Part shown: positions 13,861-19,552 of the stretch, piece after piece
How the letters are laid out: each line of letters opens with the position of its first letter
Numbering within the stretch: position 1 is the first letter of the stretch
Assembly: GCF_012641075.1 (NCBI RefSeq)
Contig: NZ_JAAXLJ010000025.1
Coordinates: 1-32,494 of the forward strand
Reading direction: 5' to 3'
DNA from: Secundilactobacillus angelensis
Lineage (GTDB): Bacteria > Bacillota > Bacilli > Lactobacillales > Lactobacillaceae
DNA: 32,494 nt
Notes under the pieces: generated by a model
What the model was told of the DNA's origin: nothing
Database searches by the model: none
What the model saw: the letters and a program-made list of their open reading frames with translations, nothing else
Translations under genes and position numbers: made by a program

Positions 13861-15006
13861 ATGCAAATTCAGGAAATGACGGATGAGTTTCAAGAAGCCA
13901 CTGATTTTCAGAGCCAGGCCTTATATCAACTTGCCCAGCAACAGCAGTTAATTGCGTTGTTTTTTACGTCACTGGCGGCGTCAGAAGAGGCTGAACTGCA
14001 AAAACGGTTACGTCAACTAGATGCTGTGATGGTGGTAAGTGACGGTGATGTTTTCGGTTTATTAAAGTTGCCCGCACTACACCTTTTGGCGCAGCATTGG
14101 TTGAGCTGGTTCCCGGGTGATAAGGCTGGCGAACAGACCCTACAGCGAATTTTAACCGCCCACGATTTAGATTGGCAGGTTGCCGGCAAACGGTTTAAGT
14201 TACGTGACACGTCGATCGTTTACGGTATCATGAATATTACACCAGATTCATTTTACGATGGCGGTCGCTACACCACTATGGATGCAGTTTTAGCTCACGT
14301 GGACGAAATGCTGGCGGCCGGGGCGGATGTGATCGAAGTTAACGGGCAGACGACTCGGCCAGGTTATACTGAGGTCACGCCAGAAGTTGAAATTGAACGA
14401 ACGATTCCCTACATTAAAGCGATTACTAGCCGTTTTCCAGAGGCTATCTTAGCCATTGATACTTATAAAGTACCCGTGATGGAAGCGGCTATTGATGCTG
14501 GTGTAGCAATTATCAACGACGTCAATAGTTTTACGGATGAGCCCGCCAAAGTTAAATTGATGGCACAGTCAAATGTCGGATTGCTGACCATGTTGAATGG
14601 CCGTAATTTTGATTTTAACGTCATGACGGATGAAGCCCACCAGTTCTTTGAAGATAACTTAAATGAATTGACTGCAGCTGGAATCGATCGTGATCGAATC
14701 GCCATTGATCAAGGACTTGGCTATGCGAATGCGAAGGTCCAAAATGACGATCAAGATTACGTGATCATGAATAATACTGACCAGTTTAACGATCTGAAGC
14801 GACCAATGATGGTGGCCGTTTCGCGGAAGGGCTACATGGCTAATCTGCTAGGTTTAAAGAAGGACGAACGATTACCGATGACGCTGGTTAGCGAAGTGGC
14901 GATGATGCAAAAGGGCGGTAAAATTATCCGGGTGCATGACGTGAAAGAAACCCGCCAAATGGTGACGTTACTTGATCGGATTAACCAGGGTTACTGGCTC
15001 GCATAA
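13861..15006 (+). CDS. folP: Dihydropteroate synthase with N-terminal extension
   Basis: It joins 6-hydroxymethyldihydropterin pyrophosphate with p-aminobenzoate. 381 residues, longer than the usual ~270. About 115 N-terminal residues form a separate segment with no recognised motif, seen also in other lactic acid bacteria as far as I recall. The TIM barrel starts at VYGIMNITPDSFYDGG; loop 2 reads NGQTTRPG where most enzymes have a STRPG; the C-terminus has AVSRKGY and IIRVHDVKETR. AGAGGAG precedes the ATG at 13861. It is the last gene of the operon; a weak CACAAAT/TTTTGTG inverted repeat (15009-15032) is the only terminator-like element. Confidence 0.95.
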   Translation: MQIQEMTDEFQEATDFQSQALYQLAQQQQLIALFFTSLAASEEAELQKRLRQLDAVMVVSDGDVFGLLKLPALHLLAQHWLSWFPGDKAGEQTLQRILTAHDLDWQVAGKRFKLRDTSIVYGIMNITPDSFYDGGRYTTMDAVLAHVDEMLAAGADVIEVNGQTTRPGYTEVTPEVEIERTIPYIKAITSRFPEAILAIDTYKVPVMEAAIDAGVAIINDVNSFTDEPAKVKLMAQSNVGLLTMLNGRNFDFNVMTDEAHQFFEDNLNELTAAGIDRDRIAIDQGLGYANAKVQNDDQDYVIMNNTDQFNDLKRPMMVAVSRKGYMANLLGLKKDERLPMTLVSEVAMMQKGGKIIRVHDVKETRQMVTLLDRINQGYWLA

Positions 15007-15048
15007 CCCACAAATATTTCTGAGATTTTGTGAGAATATAATAAAATG

Positions 15049-15077
15049 TTGACTAAGTTTTCTTAATATGTTTTAAT
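15049..15077 (+). promoter_or_regulatory. Promoter of the aromatic amino acid operon
   Basis: TTGACT (15049-15054) and TTTAAT (15072-15077) are 17 nt apart. RNA would start near 15084, upstream of the leader peptide. Confidence 0.75.
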
Positions 15078-15105
15078 GTAAACAATCTAATAAGAGAAGG
15101 GATCA

Positions 15106-15168
15106 ATGACAATGACGACACAGTTAACTCAAGTTAATGCGTATTGGTACGGTTATTACTTTAGTTAG
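15106..15168 (+). CDS. Aromatic leader peptide (20 residues, ends YWYGYYFS)
   Basis: A short frame begins at ATG 15106 (or ATG 15112) behind AGAAGGG (15095-15101). After a Thr/Gln-rich start it encodes Tyr-Trp-Tyr-Gly-Tyr-Tyr-Phe-Ser and stops with TAG at 15166-15168. Six of the last eight residues are aromatic, and the next operon makes chorismate, prephenate and tyrosine precursors. The stop codon overlaps the first arm of a 10-bp hairpin. This is the arrangement of ribosome-stalling attenuation as in trp and pheA leaders: low charged tRNA-Tyr, tRNA-Trp or tRNA-Phe would stall the ribosome and change RNA folding. The mechanism is inferred; the peptide and hairpins are seen directly. Confidence 0.85.
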   Translation: MTMTTQLTQVNAYWYGYYFS

Positions 15169-15326
15169 CGTCCGCAGCTTTAAATGCGGACGCTCAAGCA
15201 AACGCGTTCGCGTCTAAAGCAAGCCGTCGATTTGTCGTGCCAGCTAGACGTGAAGTTCTAGCTGGACCATGATTGATTCCATTAAGGAAACAATGCAGCC
15301 AGCTAGATAGTCTAGCTGGCTTTTTT
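15167..15326 (+). promoter_or_regulatory. Attenuator: competing hairpins and intrinsic terminator
   Basis: Hairpin 1 is AGCGTCCGCA (15167-15176) with TGCGGACGCT (15185-15194). An alternative pairs GCTTTA and GACGC (15177-15182, 15189-15193) with GCGTC-TAAAGC (15210-15220). Hairpin 3 is CCAGCTAGA (15240-15248) with TCTAGCTGG (15257-15265). The terminator is AGCCAGCTAGA (15297-15307) with TCTAGCTGGCT (15311-15321) and a T6 tail. Hairpin 3 repeats the terminator arms exactly, so 15257-15265 can instead pair with 15299-15307 and block termination. No T-box consensus sequence is seen. Confidence 0.82.
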
Positions 15327-15351
15327 CGTACACAAATAAGGAGTGGTGATA

Positions 15352-15687
15352 ATGATGGTAACAAATGAAGATGAAACAGGCGTGTGGCAATCCAATCAAT
15401 TAACAGCTGCTCGCAAGCAGATTAATGATATTGATGACGAAATTGTGGCCCTTTTAGCACAGCGGTTCGATGCGGTGACAAAGGTGAACGAAGCTAAAGC
15501 TGCTGCCAACTTACCAATTATGGATCATGGACGAGAAGATCAAGTTTTAGACCGGGTTACCGGACAGGATTCTAATCCGGCAACAAAACGCTATATGCGT
15601 AACATTTTTGCTACCATCATGAAAAACTCCAGGGAATATCAAGATTTTTTAACGAAGACTAACCATCAAAAGGGGATTACGAAATGA
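15352..15687 (+). CDS. Chorismate mutase (AroQ type)
   Basis: It rearranges chorismate to prephenate, the branch point to tyrosine and phenylalanine. 111 residues, all helical, with the AroQ pattern: LTAARKQINDIDDEIVALLAQRF (Arg and the acidic helix 1), KVNEAKAAANLPIMDHGRED (second active-site Lys and Arg), and a third helix with IFATIMKNSREYQ. The ATG at 15352 is 8 nt after AAGGAG (15338-15343); an in-frame GTG at 15343 overlaps that site. It is the first structural gene after the attenuator and overlaps aroC by 4 nt. Confidence 0.93.
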   Translation: MMVTNEDETGVWQSNQLTAARKQINDIDDEIVALLAQRFDAVTKVNEAKAAANLPIMDHGREDQVLDRVTGQDSNPATKRYMRNIFATIMKNSREYQDFLTKTNHQKGITK

Positions 15688-16850
15688 ACTACTTAACAGC
15701 GGGCGAATCACATGGACCGCAACTGACAGGAATCATCGAAGGCTTACCAGCCGGTTTATTATTGGATATTGACGGTATTAATGCTCAATTAGCAGCGCGG
15801 CAAGGTGGTTACGGCCGTGGCAGTCGCCAAAAAATTGAACATGATCAAGTGACCATCGTCGGTGGCGTCCGTCACAAAAAGACACTGGGCTCACCCGTTG
15901 CGTTGGTGGTTAACAACCGTGATCATGCCCACTGGGGTAAAATCATGGATCCCATTGCAGATGAAACAGCCGAAAATTCATTGCGGACCGTTGAACGGCC
16001 ACGACCAGGTCACGCCGATTTAGTAGGTGGCATGAAGTACAACCACCACGATTTAAGAAACGTGCTGGAACGGTCCAGTGCCAGAGAAACCGCCATGCGG
16101 GTTGCAATTGGCGCCATTTGCAAGCAGTTTCTACAGCAGTTAGGAATTGACATTGTGGGTTACGTCCAACAGATTGGGCCAGTAGCTACGGATGATCAAG
16201 CACCGTTAGATGTTAGTCGAATCAATGAGCTGATTAGTCAAAATGATTTGCGAGTGGTTCAAGGCGATAAAGTGGACGAAATTCACACCTTGATCGACAA
16301 AACCAAAAAAGATGGCGATACCTTGGGTGGCATCATTCGGGTGGTCGCAACTAACGTGCCAGCAGGCCTGGGCAGTTACATCAGTTGGGATACTAAGTTG
16401 GATGGGAAAATTGCTGCAGCAGTCATGGGAGTTAATGCCATGAAGGGCGTTGAAATTGGCGATGGCTTCGAAGCTGCTACCAGTTTCGGCAGTCAAGTCA
16501 TGGATGAGATTGACTGGCATGAAGGTGAAGGATTTACGCGTGAGTCAGATCATCTCGGTGGCTTTGAAGGCGGGATGACCAATGGCATGCCAGTAATTGT
16601 TAAAGCAGCTATGAAGCCGATTCCAACTTTATACAAACCACTTCAAAGTGTTGATGTTGAAACTAAGGAAGTTAAAAAAGCTAGCGTTGAACGGTCGGAT
16701 ACGACAGCTATCGTACCTGCTTCTATCGTAATTGAAAGTGTGGTTGCCATTGAGTTAGCTAAGGCGATTACTGATACTTTCGATGGCAGCAACATGGAGC
16801 GATTAAAGGCACAACTTAAGGTTTACCGAGAAGAACTTAAAAATTACTAG
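15684..16850 (+). CDS. aroC: Chorismate synthase
   Basis: It forms chorismate from 5-enolpyruvylshikimate 3-phosphate, using reduced FMN. 388 residues, normal length. GESHGPQLTGIIEGLPAG at the N-terminus, RPGHADLVGGMKYNHHDLRN and ERSSARETA in the flavin site, and VERSDTTAIVPAS at the C-terminal side are family signatures. The start codon overlaps the chorismate mutase stop (ATGA). It sits in the operon order mutase-aroC-aroA-tyrA-aroK. Confidence 0.97.
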   Translation: MNYLTAGESHGPQLTGIIEGLPAGLLLDIDGINAQLAARQGGYGRGSRQKIEHDQVTIVGGVRHKKTLGSPVALVVNNRDHAHWGKIMDPIADETAENSLRTVERPRPGHADLVGGMKYNHHDLRNVLERSSARETAMRVAIGAICKQFLQQLGIDIVGYVQQIGPVATDDQAPLDVSRINELISQNDLRVVQGDKVDEIHTLIDKTKKDGDTLGGIIRVVATNVPAGLGSYISWDTKLDGKIAAAVMGVNAMKGVEIGDGFEAATSFGSQVMDEIDWHEGEGFTRESDHLGGFEGGMTNGMPVIVKAAMKPIPTLYKPLQSVDVETKEVKKASVERSDTTAIVPASIVIESVVAIELAKAITDTFDGSNMERLKAQLKVYREELKNY

Positions 16851-16861
16851 GAGGGTCAGTC

Positions 16862-18148
16862 ATGCGAGCACTAAAAAGTAAACCAGCAGCCGGATTACAC
16901 GGCGAACTGACCGTTCCAGGCGATAAAAGTATCTCCCATCGAGGTATTATGTTAGGTGCAATCAGCGAGGGCACCACCACCCTCACACATTTTCTAACTT
17001 CTGCCGATTGTTTATCAACGTTGGCTGCTTTTCAGCAGTTGGGCGTTCCAATTGAACGGCAGGGTACCACAGTTAACGTTCATGGCGTTGGGTTAAACGG
17101 TTTGAAGGCTAGTTCAACCCCACTTGATATGGGCAATTCTGGGACCACGACCCGGCTGATCATGGGCTTACTTTCGGGACAGCCATTTAGCACGACTTTG
17201 ATGGGTGATGCCTCCTTATCGAAGCGACCGATGAAAAGGGTCAGTGAACCTTTAGCTACCATGGGCGCAGATATCACGACTACCGATGGTCATTTGCCGG
17301 TCACAATTCGTGGTCAGCAGCTCCACGGCGTCAATTACCAGCTGAAAGTTGCTAGCGCGCAAGTTAAAAGTGCGTTGATCTTGGCCGCGTTACAAGCCAA
17401 TGAGCCCACAACACTGACGGAGTTACTACCGACCCGGGACCATACGGAACGGATGCTGACGGCGTTTGGCGGTGAAATTACTACCGCTGACGATGGCGTC
17501 ACCATTACAGTGCAGCCGCAGCCTCATCTGAAGGGACAATCCATGACGGTTCCTGGGGACATGTCCTCCGCAGCGTTTTTCATGACCGCGGCCAGTTTGG
17601 TTCCGGGGTCTGAAATCACGTTGAAAGATGTTGGGCTTAATCACACTCGAACGGGGTTACTCGATATCTTAAATGCGATGGGTGGCAAAATTAGCGTTAA
17701 GTCACAACCAACAAATGGTGAACCCATTGGCGACCTGACAATTCAAACTGCCAAGTTAGAACCTATTAATATTGGTAAGGAACAGATTCCAGCAGTCATT
17801 GATGAACTCCCATTAGTAGCGCTATTAGCGGCTAAGGCTGACGGTGTCAGTCGAATTACGGGCGCTGAAGAGTTAAGGGTCAAAGAAACTGATCGTATTA
17901 GTGCTATCGTGTCTGAGTTTAAAAAACTGGGAATTGCCATCGAAGAGTTGCCGGATGGCTTCGTTATCGATGGTCGCAAGCCATGGTACGTGGTTGACCC
18001 GGTATTAGATGCTCATGACGACCACCGAATCGGTATGGTACTGGGAATCGCAGCGCTGTTAGTTAAGACACCTTTACAATTAAAGGGTGCTGATAGTGTT
18101 CGGATCTCCTACCCTGAATTTTTCGACGACTTAGATCAACTATTGTAA
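16862..18148 (+). CDS. aroA: 3-phosphoshikimate 1-carboxyvinyltransferase (EPSP synthase)
   Basis: It condenses shikimate 3-phosphate with phosphoenolpyruvate. 428 residues in two inverse beta-alpha domains. VPGDKSISHRGIMLGA carries the phosphate-binding Lys and Arg, then LDMGNSGTTTRL, SLSKRPMKR, LRVKETDRI and DAHDDHRIGM. AGGAGGG precedes the ATG, 11 nt after the aroC stop. The LDMGNSGTTTRL loop resembles class II enzymes of Gram-positive bacteria, judged only by eye. Confidence 0.97.
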   Translation: MRALKSKPAAGLHGELTVPGDKSISHRGIMLGAISEGTTTLTHFLTSADCLSTLAAFQQLGVPIERQGTTVNVHGVGLNGLKASSTPLDMGNSGTTTRLIMGLLSGQPFSTTLMGDASLSKRPMKRVSEPLATMGADITTTDGHLPVTIRGQQLHGVNYQLKVASAQVKSALILAALQANEPTTLTELLPTRDHTERMLTAFGGEITTADDGVTITVQPQPHLKGQSMTVPGDMSSAAFFMTAASLVPGSEITLKDVGLNHTRTGLLDILNAMGGKISVKSQPTNGEPIGDLTIQTAKLEPINIGKEQIPAVIDELPLVALLAAKADGVSRITGAEELRVKETDRISAIVSEFKKLGIAIEELPDGFVIDGRKPWYVVDPVLDAHDDHRIGMVLGIAALLVKTPLQLKGADSVRISYPEFFDDLDQLL

Positions 18149-18161
18149 TGAGGTGATTGGT

Positions 18162-19028
18162 ATGACGACGGTATTGATAAGCGGTTTGGGACTGATTGGC
18201 AGTTCGTTGGCCCGAGTTATGAAAAAAAGCGACGTGCAGCCAACAATTTTGGGCGACGATCCCAACGATGACACCAGTCAGTTTCTGCTGGGTCAGGGGA
18301 TTATTGATGAACGGGTGAAGTTGTTAAAAGCAGCTTCGCGTGCGGACATCATCCTCCTCGCTGGCCCGGTTTCAGTCATTATTGATCAACTCGCGCAACT
18401 GACGGACGTCGATTTAAAGCCAGATGTCCTGGTGACGGATGTGGGGAGTACGAAGACACAGGTGATGGCCGCGTCACAGGCATTACAGCAACGCCATGTT
18501 GCCTTTATGGGTGGTCATCCAATGGCTGGCTCCCATCAAGCAGGCGGTCGCTTCGGCCGAGCCGATTTATTTGATCATGCTACATACTTCATCGTGGACG
18601 GCTCCCAGACGCTTGCTCAGGCAGCCCAATTTAAAGCTTGTCTTCAGCCGGCGAGGTTACGCTGGGTAAATGTTACAGCTAAAGCTCACGATGGCTTAGT
18701 CAGTGAAATCAGCCACGTTCCCCACGTGCTGGCAGCTAATCTGGTCAACACAGCTGACCATCAGCTCAAGCACGATTCAGTGGGATTAAGTGCCGCAGCT
18801 GGTGGGTTCAAGAGCACCACTCGAATTGCGGGTGCCGACCCCACCATGTGGACGGCGATTATGCTGAGTAACTCTGATGCAATTAGTGAACAACTCACTA
18901 CTTATATGACGCAGTTAAAGCAGATTCAAGACGCGATTGACGTACACGATACCGATAAAATCTACCAATTTTTTGCACATGCGAAATCAGTTCGAGAACG
19001 GTTAGACCAAGGAGGAGAGAAACAATGA
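18162..19028 (+). CDS. tyrA: Prephenate dehydrogenase
   Basis: It oxidises prephenate to 4-hydroxyphenylpyruvate for tyrosine synthesis, NAD+ dependent. 288 residues without an ACT domain. GLGLIGSSLARVMKK is the dinucleotide loop, TDVGSTKTQV, GGHPMAGSHQAG (active-site His) and ISHVPHVLAANLV follow the family order. The ATG at 18162 is chosen, as GAGGTG at 18150-18155 precedes it by 6 nt and an in-frame GTG at 18153 lies inside that site. Its stop overlaps the aroK start (ATGA). The lack of ACT suggests feedback control is left to other enzymes or to the attenuator. Confidence 0.95.
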   Translation: MTTVLISGLGLIGSSLARVMKKSDVQPTILGDDPNDDTSQFLLGQGIIDERVKLLKAASRADIILLAGPVSVIIDQLAQLTDVDLKPDVLVTDVGSTKTQVMAASQALQQRHVAFMGGHPMAGSHQAGGRFGRADLFDHATYFIVDGSQTLAQAAQFKACLQPARLRWVNVTAKAHDGLVSEISHVPHVLAANLVNTADHQLKHDSVGLSAAAGGFKSTTRIAGADPTMWTAIMLSNSDAISEQLTTYMTQLKQIQDAIDVHDTDKIYQFFAHAKSVRERLDQGGEKQ

Positions 19029-19552
19029 GAGCAATTTTAGTTGGCTTCATGGGTAGTGGCAAAACCACTGTTGGCGAGTTGTTAGCTGACCGGCTGCATC
19101 TGATGCACCGGGATCTGGATGATGTCATCGTAGAACGCGCTGGCAAAACAATTCAGCAAATCTTTGACGATGAGGGGGAAACCGCCTTTCGTCAGTTGGA
19201 ACACGATGTCTTAGCTGATACGTTAGCGAATAGTCAAGGTATCATTTCAACTGGTGGTGGTACGCCAATTCAAATGGCGAACTATCAATTGCTGCGAAAA
19301 TGCGATGTGCCAGTGATATTGCTCAACGTTAAACCGGAAACTGTTTTGGCCCGATTAGCCGATGATGGTAAGCGTCCCTTAGTTAAGGAACTAGGTGTTG
19401 ACGGCCTAATTGGTCTCAAGGCTAAGCGTGATACTAGATATCATGAAGTCAGCGATATTGAAATTGACACGGATGATCTCACACCAGAAGAAGTGGTGGA
19501 TGCCATTTTGACCCACGTTAAGTTCAGAAGTGTTCGTCATGACGCTGTGTAG
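19025..19552 (+). CDS. aroK: Shikimate kinase
   Basis: It phosphorylates shikimate with ATP. 175 residues. LVGFMGSGKTTVGELLA is the Walker A loop, RDLDDVIVERAGKTI the shikimate-binding DxxD region, FRQLEHDVL and STGGGTP bind substrate, and DDGKRPLV is the lid. AGGAGGAG precedes the ATG at 19025. Confidence 0.96.
   Translation: MRAILVGFMGSGKTTVGELLADRLHLMHRDLDDVIVERAGKTIQQIFDDEGETAFRQLEHDVLADTLANSQGIISTGGGTPIQMANYQLLRKCDVPVILLNVKPETVLARLADDGKRPLVKELGVDGLIGLKAKRDTRYHEVSDIEIDTDDLTPEEVVDAILTHVKFRSVRHDAV

Follow-up and report, generated by a model that had tools for sequence, protein, structure and literature searches.

The aromatic amino acid operon of Secundilactobacillus angelensis is preceded, in the window (the whole stretch of 32,494 nucleotides that was analysed), by an element that we read, with a probability of about 0.8, as a ribosome-mediated transcription attenuator built as a seven-strand relay. 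A short leader frame is followed by some 150 nt of overlapping inverted repeats, which end in an intrinsic terminator. The original prediction, made from the window's letters alone, had proposed a leader-peptide attenuator here; the preservation of the frame across genera and the covariation of both foldings argue for it. The element is located between the dihydropteroate synthase gene, which ends at 15006, and the operon, whose genes follow in the order chorismate mutase, aroC, aroA, tyrA and aroK. The source genome is 2.6 Mb, and its AroC is 84-95% identical to those of its nearest relatives, which are Secundilactobacillus species. Elsewhere in the window, an M-box magnesium riboswitch occupies 2352-2517 on the reverse strand (129.7 bits). 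The genes of the operon are:

15352 to 15687, forward strand: chorismate mutase (type II), the first operon gene, starting at 15352 or 15355 (PF01817)
15684 to 16850, forward strand: aroC, chorismate synthase (profile matches)
16862 to 18148, forward strand: aroA, EPSP synthase (profile matches)
18153 to 19028, forward strand: tyrA, prephenate dehydrogenase (PF02153 and PF20463; NCBIfam matches below cut-off or partial)
19025 to 19552, forward strand: aroK, shikimate kinase (PF01202; NCBIfam matches below cut-off)

The 5′ part of the element contains the following signals:

15049 to 15077, forward strand: probable promoter read from the sequence (TTGACT at 15049-15054, a spacer of 17 nt, TTTAAT at 15072-15077)
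15094 to 15101, forward strand: Shine-Dalgarno sequence GAGAAGGG of the leader frame
15106 to 15168, forward strand: leader frame MTMTTQLTQVNAYWYGYYFS, 20 codons from the ATG at 15106 to the stop codon TAG at 15166-15168

The segment 15049-15077 is probably the promoter, judging from its sequence; it is absent from the output of a consensus promoter scan, and a stretch resembling ATGTTTTAAT lies upstream of the leader in many relatives. Shine-Dalgarno-like stretches also precede the relatives' leaders. The frame in the window ends in AYWYGYYFS, so that six of its last eight residues are aromatic, encoded by four Tyr, one Trp and one Phe codons. In 5,000 dinucleotide shuffles of 15007-15345, a Shine-Dalgarno-led frame with at least six aromatic residues among the last eight never occurred, and one with at least five occurred in three. 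The sequence and this shuffle test thereby confirm the predicted 20-residue frame ending in Tyr-Trp-Tyr-Gly-Tyr-Tyr-Phe-Ser.

How widely is this leader preserved? Within the genus, the DNA of the leader region has matches in 13 of 15 genomes, the window's own counted. In other genomes, a Shine-Dalgarno-led short frame with an aromatic tail is present in 30 of 40 stretches upstream of aroC, and its usual tail is Y-Y-Y/F-G/D-F/Y-A/Y-Y-F; one of these 30 (L065) also carries a T-box and may be spurious. The blocks downstream of the frame are similar in most aroC-upstream stretches, despite the differing first gene. The model R1, derived from 30 sequences, starts 3 nt upstream of the stop codon, reaches to strand 5 and includes the pairs 2:3 and 4:5 of the strands described below. 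It has matches in 179 of 397 Lactobacillaceae genomes, representing 27 of 40 genera and sometimes with two or three copies per genome, and in 14 of the 15 genomes of the window's genus, the exception (G008) also being without an aroC match. Among 299 genomes drawn from the class, 11 have matches, including the window's own. The class-wide matches inspected in the families f3 (four genomes), f15 and f43 have fitting leaders; of those in f9 and f21 (four genomes), the sole one inspected, L129, has no fitting leader. The search for related frames that had been suggested as a check thus finds the short Shine-Dalgarno-led frame upstream of the operon kept as a coding frame, with its aromatic residues, in relatives across many genera. 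One candidate member (L190:520-635) has a leader, MLYTSKLQLNITAWLSY, with few aromatic residues and lies upstream of a POT-like peptide transporter, as judged by eye.

From the stop codon on, the RNA contains seven consecutive strands with mutually exclusive pairings, and the intrinsic terminator comes last. These strands and three further segments are:

15149 to 15154, forward strand: strand 0, in the codons Tyr15-Gly16-Tyr17, pairing with 15222-15227 through a 6-bp core (scan z -7.0)
15167 to 15176, forward strand: strand 1, starting at the stop codon (1:2 covariation, both sides changed in 7 of 8 pairs)
15184 to 15194, forward strand: strand 2 (1:2 and 2:3 covariation)
15204 to 15216, forward strand: strand 3, 15204-15213 pairing with strand 2 and 15207-15216 with strand 4 (covariation)
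15222 to 15227, forward strand: strand 3′ (AGCCGU), complement of strand 0 (window-pair scan and in-register counts)
15240 to 15254, forward strand: strand 4, 15240-15248 pairing with strand 5 and 15245-15254 with strand 3 (covariation)
15257 to 15265, forward strand: strand 5 (4:5 and 5:6 covariation)
15272 to 15280, forward strand: linker complementary to the leader Shine-Dalgarno and start region (9 bp with 15099-15107, including G-U)
15297 to 15307, forward strand: strand 6, the 5′ arm of the terminator (covariation and terminator scan)
15311 to 15326, forward strand: strand 7, the 3′ arm of the terminator and its six-U run (covariation and terminator scan)

The predicted hairpin over the stop codon is present (15167-15176 with 15185-15194, 10 bp). 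The alternative pairing exists as well, but its proposed extent, 15177-15193 with 15210-15220, is inexact; the contiguous core is 15184-15193 with 15204-15213 (10 bp), which continues outward past one mismatch. The hairpin arms that had been described as copies of the terminator arms are indeed identical 9-mers (15240-15248/15257-15265 and 15299-15307/15311-15319), and the antiterminator, 15257-15265 with 15299-15307, is exact over 9 bp. The terminator stem itself has 11 bp (15297-15307/15311-15321), and its six-U run is at 15321-15326. The original prediction lacked the pairing 3:4 (15207-15216 with 15245-15254, 10 bp), which connects the first switch to the last. The two pairings of the hairpin-antiterminator scheme stand, but the antiterminator would respond to the first hairpin only by way of 3:4. 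The helices accordingly fall into mutually exclusive sets, one of which contains the intrinsic terminator. The segment 15100-15333 folds 6.4 sd below its dinucleotide shuffles, with none of 200 equally stable.

Covariation supports two alternative chains of these helices. From a sequence-only alignment (A1), six aberrant loci were removed, and 31 of the 37 elements were used (L020, L031, L033, L034, L044 and L079 were left out as redundant or divergent). In the OFF chain (2:3, 4:5 and 6:7), 91.0% of the cells pair, both sides change in 22 of 34 pairs, and there are 63 double changes, as compared to a shuffled mean of 22.5. In the ON chain (1:2, 3:4 and 5:6), 92.0% of the cells pair, both sides change in 16 of 26 pairs, and 61 double changes stand against a shuffled mean of 22.7. 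None of 500 shuffles equalled either chain, and sliding the partners by 1-3 columns reduced the pairing to 23-44%. The covariation check that had been proposed for the hairpin arms thus comes out positively in both foldings. A model search of 100 chosen loci gave 101 matches, 95 of which entered pair scans after being thinned to 47 and 45 representatives; the wrong-strand or partial matches L068:2391-2505, L081:657-760, L169:1597-1656 and L173:567-658 were left out, as were L190 (weak leader) and L137 (frame picked wrongly). Among 703 window pairs in the 45 representatives, the duplex energies of own versus swapped partners were most distinct for 2:3 (z -10.9), 4:5 (z -10.4), 1:2 (z -9.5) and 3:4 (z -8.3), followed by the aromatic codons paired with the post-strand-3 loop (z -7.0).

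This last signal corresponds to strand 0, which lies in the aromatic codons, 24-10 nt upstream of the stop codon, and pairs with the post-strand-3 loop; this pairing was absent from the original prediction. The window has a second 6-bp register, 15143-15148 with 15226-15231. The strand-0 alignment (A4) comprises 34 of the 50 printed elements; eight Phe-only or Cys-rich leaders were left out, together with L016, L027, L070, L124, L126, L127, L180 and L185, the last two of which have the two weakest duplexes. With eight of the 34 rows moved by one codon so that the Gly codon aligns, 261 of 332 in-register cells pair (78.6%; permuted mean 71.5, maximum 75.0 in 1,000 permutations), and double changes number 35 (permuted mean 12.9, maximum 28). 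When the rows are not moved, 72.6% of the cells pair, as compared to 67.0% in shuffles, none of which was as high (0 of 500), and the 23 double-change cells, against 12.5, were reached by 10 of 500 shuffles. The non-aromatic codon and the loop triplet often co-vary (AAC-GTT, AGC-GCT, AAT-ATT, GAC-GTC, and GGC with GCC or GTC); L123, L150 and L178 are misfits, and L044 is gapped. The conserved non-aromatic leader codon is therefore probably conserved because its RNA pairs. Across the 50 elements, the duplexes are often 8-12 bp long; in the window's genus the core has about 6 bp, and in L180 and L185 the duplex is weak. A further alignment (A5, 23 sequences) was set aside because its loop was badly aligned. 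Sequence and covariation thus point to strand 0 as a conserved pairing partner.

We also considered the post-strand-3 loop as an anti-start element. The start region with this loop scored z -5.9, two intended controls were stronger, and the idea was kept in part. In the 47 representatives, the aromatic codons with the loop scored z -8.9, the start region with the post-strand-5 linker z -8.6, and the upstream control 0.0. The signal for the start region with the linker (15272-15280) is lower in short windows (z -3 to -4).

How would this element sense amino acids? We infer the stalling, the last relay steps and the role of strand 0 as follows. Translation of the leader would proceed as RNA polymerase synthesises the strands. 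When charged Tyr-tRNA (or Trp-tRNA) is scarce, the ribosome would stall at codons 13-17, about 12-24 nt upstream of the stop codon, and leave strand 1 free; 1:2 would then permit 3:4, and 3:4 would permit 5:6, so that the 6:7 terminator does not form and the operon is transcribed. When the amino acids are plentiful, the ribosome at the stop codon would hide strand 1, so that 2:3, 4:5 and 6:7 form and transcription ends. With strand 1 located at the stop codon and beyond it, starvation can mean “on” only in a chain with an odd number of strands. That the starved ribosome causes read-through is deduced from this parity and from the biosynthetic nature of the operon. With no ribosome on the leader, strand 0 and the start region would pair with the post-strand-3 loop and compete with 3:4, which would bring the default nearer to “off”.

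We modelled the first steps by equilibrium folding with the ribosome footprint masked (assumed to extend from -18 to +13 relative to the A-site) and the RNA ends stepped. Across 31 elements, with strand 4 made and strand 5 not yet made, the mean P(3:4) was 0.59 when the stalled ribosome stood 27-12 nt upstream of the stop codon, 0.07 when it was on the stop codon or at most two codons away, and 0.24 for ribosome-free RNA; the shift between stalled and stop positions exceeded 0.3 in 21 of the 31, with no reversals. The calculation thus supports a shift by the mask from 1:2 and 3:4 to 2:3. In the window at this stage, P(3:4) was still 0.72 with the ribosome exactly on the stop codon. With strand 6 just made, the window's P(5:6) was 0.95-1.0 for stalls at Tyr13, Trp14, Tyr15 and Tyr17, 0.08 at Phe19 and 0.26 at the stop codon; the ribosome-free value of 0.81 counts against a strict “off” default. 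Masking strand 0 raised the mean P(3:4) from 0.24 to 0.48 in the 31 elements; however, masks over the start region (0.53), another leader segment (0.40) and an upstream stretch (0.33) also raised it, so strand 0 is not unique in this effect. The ribosome-free 0:3′ pair exceeded 0.5 in 13 of the 31. In this model, a strand-0 gate is plausible.

The calculations at later stages bear on a simpler scheme, a plain two-state attenuator in which control rests on 4:5 and 6:7 versus 5:6 alone, the strands upstream of these being incidental or serving as a protein-binding site. The covariation of 4:5, 5:6 and 6:7 agrees with it. Once strand 5 is made, the window's 4:5 forms at equilibrium whatever happens upstream: with RNA ends at 15268 and 15290, each of the seven ribosome settings gave a P(4:5) of 1.0 and a P(3:4) of 0. 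Completing the terminator brought P(5:6) to 0.61-0.65 and P(6:7) to 0.35-0.39, likewise in every setting. In the cross-species comparison at the point where strand 6 has just been made, P(5:6) moved by more than 0.3 in 4 of 28 elements and was thus, by this 0.3 criterion, insensitive to the ribosome in 24, as the two-state scheme expects; it was below 0.2 in 15 and at least 0.55 in 8 regardless of the ribosome (three elements with a misaligned terminator were left out of this table). Because the final relay step rarely switches at equilibrium, either kinetics must decide the outcome or the energies used are inaccurate. However, three of the four strongest covarying pairings in the scan are 1:2, 2:3 and 3:4, and strand 1 begins at or beside the stop codon in aligned relatives. 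We therefore regard the two-state scheme as unlikely, although it is the best of the alternatives, and retain the seven-strand relay.

Next, we examined which amino acid is sensed. After the four wrong-strand or partial matches were dropped from the 101, 97 elements were sorted by downstream gene and 94 classed, L137 being counted with its wrong leader. The classes rest on sequence patterns, supplemented by profile scans of the L134, L149, L151 and L188 proteins; leaders were ranked by Shine-Dalgarno sequence, ATG and then the number of F/W/Y/C/H residues, which introduces a mild bias into the residue counts. Per last ten residues, the leaders before an MFS transporter (47 elements) average 3.6 Tyr, 2.0 Phe and 0.2 Trp, and those before chorismate mutase (12 elements) 3.9 Tyr, 1.7 Phe and 0.3 Trp. 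The leaders of the common-pathway enzymes, which comprise AroE (nine elements), AroA (one) and AroK (one), are Tyr-rich. Those before an ABC_sub_bind protein (15 elements, one of which, L137, is misread) average 4.0 Phe and 0.8 Tyr; the Lactobacillaceae ones examined are Phe-only, and those of other families also contain Tyr. The HTLGP protein (five elements) follows leaders with 3.4 Phe and no Tyr. SBP_bac_3 and an M20 hydrolase follow one leader each, both with five Cys, and NhaC (four Tyr) and POT also have one each. Three elements remained unclassified by pattern, one being the window's own, which is assigned to chorismate mutase by PF01817. Hence, the codons match the product of the operon, and codon identity tracks the downstream gene across the family. 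As R1 barely covers the coding frame, this agreement gives mostly independent support for the codons being what is sensed.

The original prediction had envisaged a single leader sensing Tyr, Trp and Phe jointly. The aromatic frame bears this out in part, but the codon counts and the masking model indicate that the window's leader would mainly sense Tyr: in the model, a ribosome stalled at Phe, or with its A-site on the last Tyr codon (9 nt upstream of the stop codon), acts like one close to the stop codon, which leaves Tyr13, Trp14, Tyr15 and Tyr17. For the ABC_sub_bind protein of L134, the NCBIfam TrpX match is below cut-off (318 of 390 bits) and the Pfam ABC_sub_bind match above it; the TrpX-type ABC transporters behind Phe-only Lactobacillaceae leaders are probably Phe carriers. 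In L094, L098, L102, L145 and L183, a small protein with an IHTLGPxxTDS-type start follows leaders with Phe as the sole aromatic residue. It is 176 aa long in L098 and L102, scans of the L098 copy against Pfam and NCBIfam gave no match, and it probably belongs to Phe metabolism. Cys-rich leaders with the same architecture are found at L149:501-607 (NCCCTCCMI), L188:505-611 (NTCCCCTCYM) and L189:506-607 (YCTCTR). Two of these precede a cystine-type binding protein and an M20 hydrolase, and the third lies at a contig end; the L149 protein matches the NCBIfam cystine binding protein below cut-off.

Alternatively, a free aromatic amino acid or a product of the pathway might trigger arrest of the ribosome by the leader peptide itself, in the manner of TnaC, with no need for codon starvation. 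The tail is indeed kept beyond its aromatic content (Y-Y-Y-G-F-A-Y-F type). However, the non-aromatic position varies among Gly, Asp, Asn and Ser with the loop triplet mostly in step, so that RNA pairing can account for its conservation, and the occurrence of the same architecture with Phe-only or Cys-rich tails upstream of matching genes fits the reading of codons. Peptide arrest is thus even less probable than the two-state scheme, and codon starvation remains the preferred reading. The least probable alternative, a T-box or aptamer riboswitch with an incidental frame, could draw on the 41 T-box matches in the source genome (E <= 0.001, 11 above cut-off) and on the T-box about 1.8 kb upstream of aroC in G047 (L065:1992-2191), but no T-box (RF00230, E <= 0.001) is matched on the window's contig, no Rfam family reaches its cut-off within 15000-15360, and the coding frame is kept across genera. 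Rfam scans of 20, 20 and 16 related loci likewise returned no family at cut-off; as the T-box cut-off is 93 bits, such scans could miss T-boxes, and an E-value rescan of the 16 loci found one, in L065. That T-box sits near the position of the relatives' leader peptide, perhaps reflecting a swap of sensing systems.

The codon-reading relay also bears on the trpB motif (RF04312), which has been described as a strong riboswitch candidate most commonly associated with an amino acid ABC transporter gene, with a classic attenuator considered possible, in the part of the source available to us (PMC11109978). As described there, it resembles the window's element in having two hairpins, the second a terminator, with the right shoulder of the first as antiterminator (PMC11109978). 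In our reading it differs in having five strands as compared to seven and in its association with Trp as compared to Tyr or Phe. The window scores 26.6 bits against RF04312, below the cut-off of 59, which is exceeded in none of the 15 genus genomes; at E <= 1 the family gives many sub-threshold matches in the genus, so the weak match of the window means little alone. Among the 59 matches listed (in 56 of 198 genomes of the order), 30 loci scoring above the cut-off were taken (L152 and L196-L224). Each of them has a Shine-Dalgarno-led frame with Trp near its end, at least two Trp in 27, and any such frame appeared in 39 of 1,500 mononucleotide shuffles. These leaders mostly end in W-Q-S/N-W-R-R. 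By eye, from N-termini, most loci lie upstream of TrpX-like proteins, L200, L205 and L209 precede trpB, and no downstream gene was read for L196, L198 and L217. The first strand of the motif pairs with RNA lying around or downstream of the stop codon at -13.2 kcal/mol, as compared to -10.5 for permuted partners (0 of 5,000 as low); in about six loci the stop-region duplex is weak as measured, and some strands lie partly inside the frame. On these sequences, the trpB motif is probably a Trp attenuator and a shorter, five-strand relative of the window's element.

The attenuators of E. coli trp and pheA have four strands, of which strand 1 lies in the coding region and is covered by the stalled ribosome. 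The window's element shares with them a Shine-Dalgarno-led leader with codons for the end product, mutually exclusive hairpins and an intrinsic terminator before the operon; in contrast, its strand 1 is at the stop codon, would be freed by stalling, and belongs to a series of seven. The window scores 12.7 bits against Trp_leader (RF00513), below the cut-off of 41. Aromatic regulation in Gram-positives is reportedly treated by Panina et al. 2003, which lies outside the literature searched. Within the available parts of that literature, including PMC2965389, PMC2494555 and PMC3766115, we found no description of a Lactobacillaceae aromatic leader peptide. The uORFC-13-1 motif upstream of Acholeplasma aroF has 24 representatives in Acholeplasma and environmental sequences; it has a leader with at least one Phe codon upstream of an aromatic-pathway gene and then an apparent terminator, but the part of the source available describes no comparable relay (PMC8632094). 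Leader-peptide attenuation of Staphylococcus aureus ilv-leu is a Gram-positive parallel with genetic support, but, as far as the available part of the source goes, it uses Leu/Ile codons and another RNA scheme (PMC5794164). Leader-peptide attenuation has long been known, including in Gram-positives; as far as Rfam and the literature searched go, the relay form in the window appears to be new.

With this element, the common aromatic pathway of lactic acid bacteria would be governed by a leader-peptide sensor, a role in which T-boxes would be expected. A single architecture appears to be reused with different codons upstream of different amino acid genes, which yields substrate predictions, and it offers a testable explanation for the orphan riboswitch candidate RF04312. 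If, in addition, the sensing codons themselves act as a pairing strand (strand 0) in this control, read-through would require the ribosome to be on those codons and not at the stop codon, which would constitute a position-specific AND gate. More broadly, and at somewhat less than even odds, relay attenuators may form a widespread, previously unclassified superfamily of the Lactobacillales, with swappable sensor peptides for Tyr/Trp/Phe, for Phe, for Cys and, in the shorter RF04312 form, for Trp, a sign set by the stop-proximal strand 1 and the odd strand number, an AND gate based on strand 0, and RF04312 as a five-strand member.
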